Source of the DNA: Armatimonadota bacterium
Lineage (GTDB): Bacteria > Armatimonadota > JAAZEB01
Assembly (NCBI GenBank): GCA_012512505.1
Contig: JAAZEB010000166.1
Location: forward strand, 1-32,738
Direction of reading: 5' to 3'
Length of the DNA stretch: 32,738 bases
In this document: in pieces, positions 7,799-9,536 of the stretch
Position numbering within the stretch: position 1 is the stretch's first letter
Layout: each line of letters opens with the position of its first letter
Made by a program: the position numbers and the translations under genes
Notes under the pieces: generated by a model
What the model was told of the DNA's origin: nothing
The model's input: the letters and a program-made list of their open reading frames with translations, nothing else
The model's database searches: none

Positions 7799-8680
7799 CT
7801 ACCAGCCGGCCTCGGCGCCGAAGCGGCGCACGAAGTCCTGGTCGTAGGCGTCGAGCGGGCCGGCGAACTCGTAGCAGACGTTGGCGGCATCGTTGCGGCC
7901 CAAGCGCAGGTAGATCTCGCCCAGGATGTGCTTGTACGAGCCGTTGTCCGGCCGAATGCGGATCGCGTTGCGGATGGAGCGGACGGCCTTCTCCGCCTGG
8001 CCTAACTGCAGATAGAGCGCGCCCAAGCGCAGGTGGTAATAGTCGTCCTGGTCGGCCAGTTCGGCGGCGATCTCCAGTTGGGCCAGCGCCTGATGTTGTT
8101 CGCCGCGCCGCAGGTGCAGCTCCGCCAGCCAGTAGCGGTAGAAGGCATCGGCCGGCTCGATCTCCACGGCGCGCGTCAGTTCGACGAGGGCGTCGTGCAG
8201 GAAGCCGGTGTGGATCAGGGCATCCGCCAGCCGGTAGCGGTAGTAGGCGTTCGTCTGATCCAGGTAGGCGGCCACCCGGTACTCGCGGATGGCGGCCTTG
8301 ACCCGGCCATAGCGGCGGTAAAGCTCCGCCAGCCCAAAGTGCGGCTCGGCGTCTTTGGGCGCCACGTTGATCGCCTTCTTGTACTGGGCGATGGCGCGGG
8401 CGCTGTTTTCGGTGTAGACGTAAGCATCCGCCAGGCGCGTGTGCGGCCGGGCCTCCTGCCCGCCCAGACGAACCGCCTGCCGGTACGCCTCGATGGCGCC
8501 GGCGATGTCGCCTTCGGCAGCCCGCTCGTCACCCCGGCGCAGGCACGTCTCGGGGGTCTCCTCGGCGGGCGGCGCCGACAACGCCTCAACCTTCCGAACG
8601 GTCTCCGGCTGCACATCCGGGAAGAAGCTCGTCTGGAAGAAGCGCTGCAGAGCCTCGACCGTGTCTCTCTCCGATCTCAT
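7799..8680 (-). CDS. Seven-repeat TPR protein
   Basis: 293-aa soluble protein built almost entirely of tetratricopeptide repeats. Seven 34-residue units start near residues 44, 78, 112, 146, 180, 214 and 248, with canonical A/G/Y/A/P positions (for example AIAQYKKAINVAPKDAEPHF). Such superhelices are scaffolds for protein-protein contacts; the partner is unknown. An N-terminal 40-residue segment is non-repeat. The start is ATG 8680 (MRSERD); an open extension upstream runs through the repeat array and is not coding. AGGAG lies about 13 bases upstream, a loose Shine-Dalgarno. The gene is preceded by the 79-bp repeat array, which would lie in its 5' leader if it is co-transcribed with dtd. Confidence 0.88.
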   Translation of the reverse strand: MRSERDTVEALQRFFQTSFFPDVQPETVRKVEALSAPPAEETPETCLRRGDERAAEGDIAGAIEAYRQAVRLGGQEARPHTRLADAYVYTENSARAIAQYKKAINVAPKDAEPHFGLAELYRRYGRVKAAIREYRVAAYLDQTNAYYRYRLADALIHTGFLHDALVELTRAVEIEPADAFYRYWLAELHLRRGEQHQALAQLEIAAELADQDDYYHLRLGALYLQLGQAEKAVRSIRNAIRIRPDNGSYKHILGEIYLRLGRNDAANVCYEFAGPLDAYDQDFVRRFGAEAGW

Positions 8681-8732
8681 CGAACGTCCAGCTCTCCTCT
8701 TCGTCCGGGTCTCCCGGTGATCAGGCGCTTCT

Positions 8733-9056
8733 GGGGCAATCTCCGTGCCGCGTGAGAGCCCCGAAAGTAGCGGGGTGCCGCTGCCATGCGGCCAGGATGC
8801 CCGATTGCTCGGGCACTTCAATGATCGCCCGAGAGTGTAGCGGAGTGCCACAGCAATGCGGCATCCCACAGTGCGAAGCCCGATAGCTCGGGCACTCCGA
8901 TAATCGCCCAGGTGAGTCACGGAGTGCCGCAGCAATGCGGCATCCCACAGTGCGAAGCCCGATTGCTCGGGCACTCCGGCAACCCCCCGGGAAAGTAGTG
9001 GAGTGCCGCAGCGATGCGGCATCCCAACTGCGGAGGCCCGATTGCTCGGGCACTCC
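8733..9056. repeat. Array of four structured repeats, 79-bp period
   Basis: Four units lie at 8772-8819 (48 bp), 8842-8898, 8921-8977 and 9000-9056 (57 bp each). They are separated by three spacers of exactly 22 bases that are themselves related. Each unit starts GGAGTGCC and ends GGCACTCC, so the ends pair as an outer stem. Inside are two hairpins. On the plus strand these are a TGCCGCA/TGCGGCA stem with loop GCAA (GCGA in unit 4), then GCCCGA/TCGGGC with loop TTGC (TAGC in unit 2). Units 2 and 3 differ at two positions. Unit 1 lacks part of the segment between the hairpins and has GGGGTGCC/GGCACTTC ends, which still pair through G-U. A decayed unit end may be present at 8733-8744. It lies between dtd and the TPR gene. 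It is not CRISPR: spacers are related, and the units are large and palindromic. Confidence 0.88.
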
Positions 9057-9086
9057 GGCTCCTATTCGTGCTTCTCGGATAGGTTC

Positions 9087-9536
9087 TCAGAACAGCCGGC
9101 GGCTATCCAGCAAGATTGTCACCGGGCCATCGTTGGTGATCTCCACCTGCATGTGGGCACCAAACCGGCCGAGTGCCACCGGGATTCCCTGCGCTTCGAG
9201 CCGTTCCACCACGCGCCAGTAGAGGGCCTCGGCCCGGTCGGGGGGCGCCGCCTGGGTGAAGCTGGGGCGGCGGCCCTTGCGGCAGTCGCCAAGGAGGGTG
9301 AACTGCGACACGGCGAGCACTCCGCCCCCGACCTCGCGAACGGAGCGGTTCATCTTCCCGTCGGCGTCCTCGAAGATGCGCAGGCCAGCCAGCTTGTCGG
9401 CGATGTAGCCGGCATCCTCCAGGGTGTCGTCGGTTTCCACGCCGATGAGGACCACCAGGCCCTGCCCAATCTGCCCGGTCGTCTCGCCGCCGACGGTGAC
9501 GCGCGCTCGCGCCGCGCGTTGGACTACCGCGCGCAT
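9087..9536 (-). CDS. dtd: D-aminoacyl-tRNA deacylase
   Basis: 149-aa enzyme that hydrolyses D-amino acids (and glycine) from mischarged tRNAs, protecting translation fidelity. The family signatures are intact: [17 protein letters not shown] (residues 77-93, with the active-site Thr80) and the Gly-cisPro motif NDGPVT (135-140). Length matches the usual 145-150. The start is ATG 9536 (MRAVVQRA) with GGAGGG a few bases upstream; the open frame continues upstream to 9869 only because stops are rare in this G+C content. It has its own promoter (9623-9652 on the minus strand), divergent from the PP2C gene. Confidence 0.96.

Follow-up and report, generated by a model that had tools for sequence, protein, structure and literature searches.

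A tandem array of inverted, GGAG-footed REP hairpins behind the dtd gene of an Armatimonadota bacterium, and its relation to BIMEs and REPINs

The array considered here lies between two genes read from the minus strand of the window, by which is meant the whole 32,738-nucleotide stretch of Armatimonadota DNA that was analysed. The upstream gene is dtd, the downstream gene encodes a TPR protein, and the space between them is occupied by alternating hairpins of two types, A and B, bounded on each side by a short inward-pointing motif. The features are as follows.

7799-8680, minus strand: TPR protein gene, downstream of the array, directly adjoining dtd in sister genera
8753-8771, plus strand: left boundary motif TGAGAGCCCCGAAAGTAGC, a degenerate form of T[AG]AGAGCCTATCCG[AG]AAAG, the motif that other arrays have at their ends
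8772-8792, plus strand: REP type A, copy 1, degenerate, with foot GGGG
8799-8819, minus strand: REP type B, copy 1; closes unit 1 (8772-8819, 48 bp)
8820-8841, no strand: inter-unit spacer, 22 nt
8842-8862, plus strand: REP type A, copy 2, with one stem mismatch
8878-8898, minus strand: REP type B, copy 2; closes unit 2 (8842-8898, 57 bp)
8899-8920, no strand: inter-unit spacer, 22 nt
8921-8941, plus strand: REP type A, copy 3
8957-8977, minus strand: REP type B, copy 3; closes unit 3 (8921-8977, 57 bp)
8978-8999, no strand: inter-unit spacer, 22 nt
9000-9020, plus strand: REP type A, copy 4, with loop GCGA
9036-9056, minus strand: REP type B, copy 4; closes unit 4 (9000-9056, 57 bp)
9071-9089, minus strand: right boundary motif TGAGAACCTATCCGAGAAG, the TGA of which is the dtd stop codon
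9087-9536, minus strand: dtd, D-aminoacyl-tRNA deacylase (PF02580), the upstream gene, with the array directly behind it

The array thus consists of four units, three of 57 bp and a shorter one of 48 bp, with a 22-bp spacer between each unit and the next. The original prediction had four 57-bp units starting at position 8733, but no part of the array begins there; the first unit starts at 8772 and is the short one, its two hairpins being separated by a 6-nt linker, and the predicted length holds for the other three. Each unit is composed of a type A REP (repetitive extragenic palindrome; GGAGYGCCGCRGCNAYGCGGC) followed by an inverted type B REP (GGAGTGCCCGAGCNATCGGGC). Read on their own strands the two hairpins are GGAGTGCCGCAGCAATGCGGC for type A and, on the minus strand, GGAGTGCCCGAGCAATCGGGC for type B, and both types start with GGAG[TC]GCC. 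The fine detail that had been predicted was found as described: the loops GCAA and TTGC are present in unit 3, the loop of unit 4 is GCGA, the second hairpin of unit 2 has a changed loop (TAGC), and the single stem mismatch in the first hairpin of unit 2 is the pair A9/C18. On the minus strand long open frames of 110 and 407 aa cross the array (at 8721-9053), probably because the repeat is free of stop codons, and such frames may surface in databases as spurious hypothetical proteins.

The two arms of a unit look complementary because the tag and lower stem are common to types A and B, and it is this shared GGAG[TC]GCC start, together with the inversion of B relative to A, that gives the unit ends the appearance of an 8-bp “outer stem” and the loops that of being complementary. 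The original prediction had taken both appearances as structural, but neither survives the comparison of copies across the genome. The loops vary independently, 42 of 67 units being non-complementary at the variable loop base. Nor are GNRA loops the rule: GCCA, which is not GNRA, occupies 99 of 168 type B copies and GCAA 62, while type A loops are GCAA (81), GCGA (55) and GCCA (17), so that the consensus is GCNA. In an alignment of 67 distinct 57-bp units the two-hairpin structure is paired in 94.2% of cells, and both its covariation score and its count of double-change cells exceed those of all 500 shuffles. The covariation is small in amount (2 pairs, 5 cells), the clearest pair passing from A-U to G-C by way of G-U. 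The long outer-stem structure of the 57-bp units shows no excess over shuffles on any measure, and it was rejected as a selected structure. Taken with the independent loops, these results indicate that what is conserved is two separate short hairpins, each with a fixed GGAG foot.

The units are neither confined to this locus nor without covariation, the combination that the original prediction had named as counting against it. When the 324-bp array is compared with its own genome, matches are found at 47 places, and searches with the single hairpins recover 353 copies of type B within 3 mismatches (1 for the reversed control) and 294 of type A within 2 mismatches (7 for the control), giving approximately 650 REPs of the two types in more than 100 dispersed clusters. 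Many contigs (among them C352, C326, C5, C306, C259, C30, C41, C54, C106 and C110) end inside or beside arrays; the repeats therefore fragment the assembly, and the copy numbers are probably underestimates. The finer statistics of the arrays were taken from 99 stretches that together cover 1.02 Mb of the 5.66-Mb genome, 38 of them picked for strong arrays and some others for type B hits. Among the 68 arrays of this sample the order A+ B- A+ B- is nearly without exception. The hairpins are 21-25 nt long, and a typical array has three to six of them, lone type B hairpins being rare. Linkers within units are mostly 12-17 nt in the sample, and units genome-wide are mostly 48, 57 or 58 bp. The spacers between units, predicted to be exactly 22 bp, have that length throughout the window array and vary beyond it, with 22, 23 and 24 nt in 45, 54 and 9 sampled cases.

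Among copies within 2 mismatches, 153 of type B and 140 of type A have a GGAG foot, and the next commonest foot occurs 7 times, a comparison that is biased towards GGAG because the search pattern contains it. Within the genomes sampled, this exact family is restricted to the present lineage: the strict type B pattern, a GGAGYGCCCG hairpin, has 276 copies here as against 0-3 in each of 290 other Armatimonadota genomes, and similar DNA was not found in the plasmid collection. The regular alternation of repeat and spacer might be taken for a CRISPR-like or protein-binding array specific to this locus, but the spacers are similar between units and between loci, it is the repeats that vary, and there are more than 100 loci, so that the chance of such an array being at work is practically negligible. 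CRISPR was rejected on the grounds that the spacers are conserved and the array dispersed.

The placement of the arrays relative to genes bears on two further explanations. In the 1.02-Mb sample 67 of 68 arrays are extragenic, and the one genic array is probably a false gene call. With gene calls from a home-made codon-usage finder and background gaps drawn from the same stretches as the arrays, divergent gaps are avoided, holding 3 of 54 arrays where they make up 90 of the 337 background gaps that reach 100 nt (P 2.5e-4), and the median distance from an array to a facing gene 3' end is 42 nt, compared to 150 nt to a facing 5' end (P 1.5e-5). Next to codirectional genes the two array orientations are about equally frequent (21 and 15).

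One of the functions proposed in the original prediction was that of a leader-RNA element of the TPR gene; the array would then be a structured leader or attenuator RNA which regulates that gene and is kept by selection on its folding. The array does lie between dtd and the TPR gene, ahead of the start of the latter, and the predicted folding of its 57-bp units is strong (z about -3.5 to -5). A role tied to this gene is nevertheless difficult to reconcile with some 650 REPs in more than 100 other clusters beside unrelated genes, with the near equality of the two orientations beside codirectional genes, with an Rfam scan of the window in which nothing matched over the gathering score, and with an outer stem that shows no covariation. 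The TPR orthologues in two sister genera, G001 and G002, follow gaps of 37 and 18 nt that hold no array. A leader RNA is accordingly very improbable.

The bias to 3' ends and convergent gaps, together with the avoidance of divergent ones, is also what would be expected if the hairpins were bidirectional terminators or mRNA-end stabilisers which the host has amplified behind its genes, their mobility being secondary or over; roles of this sort have been described for the REPs and BIMEs of E. coli, in work cited by PMC8266576 and PMC6006769. This explanation fits less well with several properties of the arrays: they are built of whole A/B pairs, their spacers are conserved even between units, their length is variable, and a RAYT gene is flanked by them. 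Copy number also tracks the presence of RAYT across the three genomes of the family, as set out below, and inspection by eye detects no T-run of the intrinsic-terminator type after the hairpins. Such an origin is unlikely, but part of the 3'-end bias could come from a useful function, as a terminator or at the mRNA end, and not just from selection against insertions elsewhere.

Evidence for a different origin, as mobile REPs, comes from the RAYT gene. A RAYT gene came to light when the DNA that separates two arrays of these REPs in inverted orientation was read (contig C120, locus L036), an arrangement known as a “REPtron”, and was then identified with the NCBIfam profile NF047646 (REP-associated tyrosine transposase); a search of the genome with Pfam PF01797 had missed it. 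It encodes HYH, VWYQHWDR and YIHRNP and matches the profile in two pieces, with E values of 2.7e-16 and 8e-7. It is the one RAYT gene found in this genome, and it is broken: its frame is shifted (L036:3699-3805) by 71 inserted nt that contain an exact direct repeat of 36 nt, and the copy scores 59.7 bits on NF047646, below the cut-off of 80. The insert holds a GGCCCGATGG stretch which resembles a REP fragment. The frameshift means that the copy is probably dead, unless there is an assembly error at that point, and it makes present mobility doubtful.

Sister genus G002 has an intact RAYT (locus L066), 52% identical to the broken one and scoring 84.5 bits on NF047646, over the curated cut-off of 80. 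It is flanked on both sides by a GGAG-tagged REP of its own, GGAGCGCCCGGGAACCGGGC, which is dispersed through that genome in at least 90 copies within 3 mismatches and the stem variants of which change on both sides (CCCGG/CCGGG and CCGGG/CCCGG). In the other sister genus, G001, no RAYT match was obtained, type B hits are at chance level, and none of these REPs is present. RAYT and GGAG REPs therefore co-occur across the three genomes of the family, which have an intact RAYT, a broken RAYT and neither.

The same two relatives supply an empty site. In each of the six further Armatimonadota genomes that were examined the TPR gene is next to dtd, so that the neighbourhood is a conserved one, and the gap between them, which measures 406 nt with the array here, is the 37 nt of G001 and the 18 nt of G002, with no REP in either. 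The extra sequence starts right at the dtd stop codon. Neither sister has the array at this junction, so its presence here most likely results from an insertion, which is most simply read as the gain of a cluster of roughly 340 bp. The suggestion in the original prediction of a REP-like mobile sequence is thus borne out by units which are dispersed, extragenic, linked to RAYT and not present at the corresponding junction of the two sister genera.

It is therefore very likely that the array is a tandem BIME or REPIN made of non-autonomous mobile REPs that were dispersed by a RAYT, and an IS200-like transposase probably spread the REP clusters through the genome. Dispersal by RAYT is the best-supported mechanism; we infer that RAYT moved the elements, that the chemistry at work here was a single-strand one, and that the present RAYT copy is dead. 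RAYT is an HUH/Y1 tyrosine transposase related to IS200/IS605. The window has four units in a row, and in each of them two short REP hairpins, one of type A and one of type B, lie inverted to one another, both with GGAG as their 5' foot. In the proposed mechanism RAYT would recognise the hairpin and its GGAG guide where the DNA is single-stranded, as it is on the lagging-strand template, and cutting and rejoining beside the hairpin would disperse the inverted pairs, after which recombination between units could make arrays grow or shrink. One such cluster would have landed directly behind the dtd stop codon and split dtd from the TPR gene, and selection would exclude clusters from genes and promoters, leaving them to accumulate behind 3' ends.

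The sequences that border the arrays must also be considered, since the REPs could be passengers in larger transposons with terminal inverted repeats of the T[AG]AGAGCCTATCCG type and not themselves the mobile unit. Some arrays (in the window and at five other loci, L119, L034, L037, L161 and L029) have the motif T[AG]AGAGCCTATCCG[AG]AAAG at their ends, pointing inward; 9 of its 10 matches within 2 mismatches sit at most 60 nt from a REP, and in five cases it overlaps the stop codon of an adjacent gene, as if insertion preferred or restored stop codons. About another quarter of the arrays (16 left flanks and 18 right flanks among 68) are held in a second, longer composite repeat which has approximately 100 conserved nt on the left and 85 nt on the right (at L048, L113, L129, L140, L148, L161 and others) and includes palindromes of the GTAGGAGGCGTC..GACGCC kind. 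The motif, which resembles a terminal inverted repeat, is found at a subset of array ends, and no clear target-site duplication was seen. Most arrays, however, have neither flank, the same core REPs are found in at least two different flank types, and it is the REPs themselves that stand on either side of the RAYT gene. Passenger status is consequently quite improbable, and dispersal of the REPs by RAYT remains the preferred reading.

The architecture for which the original prediction knew of no named family, tandem alternating inverted REP pairs, is that of the textbook BIME or REPIN. The term BIME (bacterial interspersed mosaic element) denotes REPs paired in inverted orientation, the pairs frequently standing in tandem; a REPIN is an inverted doublet of REPs, and REPINs also form ordered tandem clusters that include flanking sequence and lie beside RAYTs; and a RAYT with its REPs on either side is called a REPtron (PMC3116915, PMC6006769, PMC8266576). 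The features by which these systems are generally recognised were all found here: a high-copy short palindrome, an extragenic location, inverted tandem pairs, a foot tetranucleotide, and a RAYT flanked by the same REPs. The RAYT likewise has the marks of a TnpA-REP, namely the HUH motif (as HYH), the tyrosine in YIHRNP (YIxxNP), and the match to the family profile.

The foot is where the system departs from those described. Known feet are most often GTAG, with variants GTGG, CGTC and CnGA (PMC3116915, PMC6006769, PMC8266576). By the feet of the sampled copies the present REPs fall neither in the GTAG superfamily (GTAG or GTGG; one GTAG foot was seen) nor in the CGTC-tagged one. No GGAG tag associated with a RAYT or REPIN, and no RAYT in Armatimonadota, was found in text searches of an open-access collection of papers, which is not proof of novelty. 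The TnpA-REP of E. coli accepts no change in GTAG and other RAYTs do, and the last two letters, AG, which are retained in GGAG, have been linked to CT cleavage sites (PMC8266576); given the tolerance of those other RAYTs, a RAYT that reads GGAG is plausible.

GGAG- or TGGA-footed hairpins flank RAYT genes in at least four Armatimonadota families (G000/G002, and G004, G050 and G081 at L071, L072 and L086) and perhaps in G098. In G081 the hairpins form a regular array in which the orientation alternates and which is found almost only at the RAYT, where 13 of the 20 pattern matches lie, and in G050 some lie away from the RAYT too. Three other Armatimonadota RAYTs (L069, L075, L081) are flanked by GTAG feet, and the association between foot type and the residues after the conserved RAYT tryptophan is not clean. 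A third REP superfamily may exist in Armatimonadota, one with the tag GGAG[TC]GC and with RAYTs that have adapted to a GGAG guide in place of GT[AG]G, a proposal to which slightly less than an even chance is given. The presence of GTAG-footed RAYTs in the same phylum means that the change of guide could be traced within one phylum, and, if GGAG-foot RAYTs cut their cognate hairpins, the guide rule could be tested against these relatives.

The value of the system is that it adds, from a phylum that has been little studied, a REP/RAYT pairing with another guide tetranucleotide, and the three-genome comparison and the clean empty site fit the view of REPs as repeats moved by RAYTs. What appears to be new here is the GGAG tag and the host phylum; otherwise the array functions like, and belongs with, BIMEs and REPINs. 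It resembles the BIMEs of E. coli, in which REP types y and z alternate, in having two inverted alternating types in tandem, an extragenic location and a single REP-flanked RAYT gene, but differs in its GGAG foot, its unrelated stem sequences, its 6-7 bp stems and GCNA loops, and its lack of the AA-GC bulge. With the REPINs of Pseudomonas fluorescens SBW25 (PMC3116915) it shares the inverted doublet unit with feet at the outer ends, clusters by the RAYT, and ordered tandem clusters that include flanking sequence; here, unlike in SBW25, isolated doublets and type B singlets are few, arrays of 4-6 REPs are the norm, each doublet has two REP types, and the foot is GGAG. The GTAG- and CGTC-tagged superfamilies (PMC3733652) are likewise short palindromes with a tetranucleotide at one end, linked to RAYTs and specific to species, but they have other tags, and Armatimonadota are absent from that work. 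Among transposases the closest likeness, assigned by motif only, is to TnpA-REP subclass 2.8 (PMC6006769), with which the RAYTs of this family share HYH in the HUH motif, tyrosine or histidine after a conserved tryptophan (VWY, VWH) and YIHxNP, whereas the sampled members of that subclass are from Cyanobacteria and are flanked by GT[AG]G REPs.
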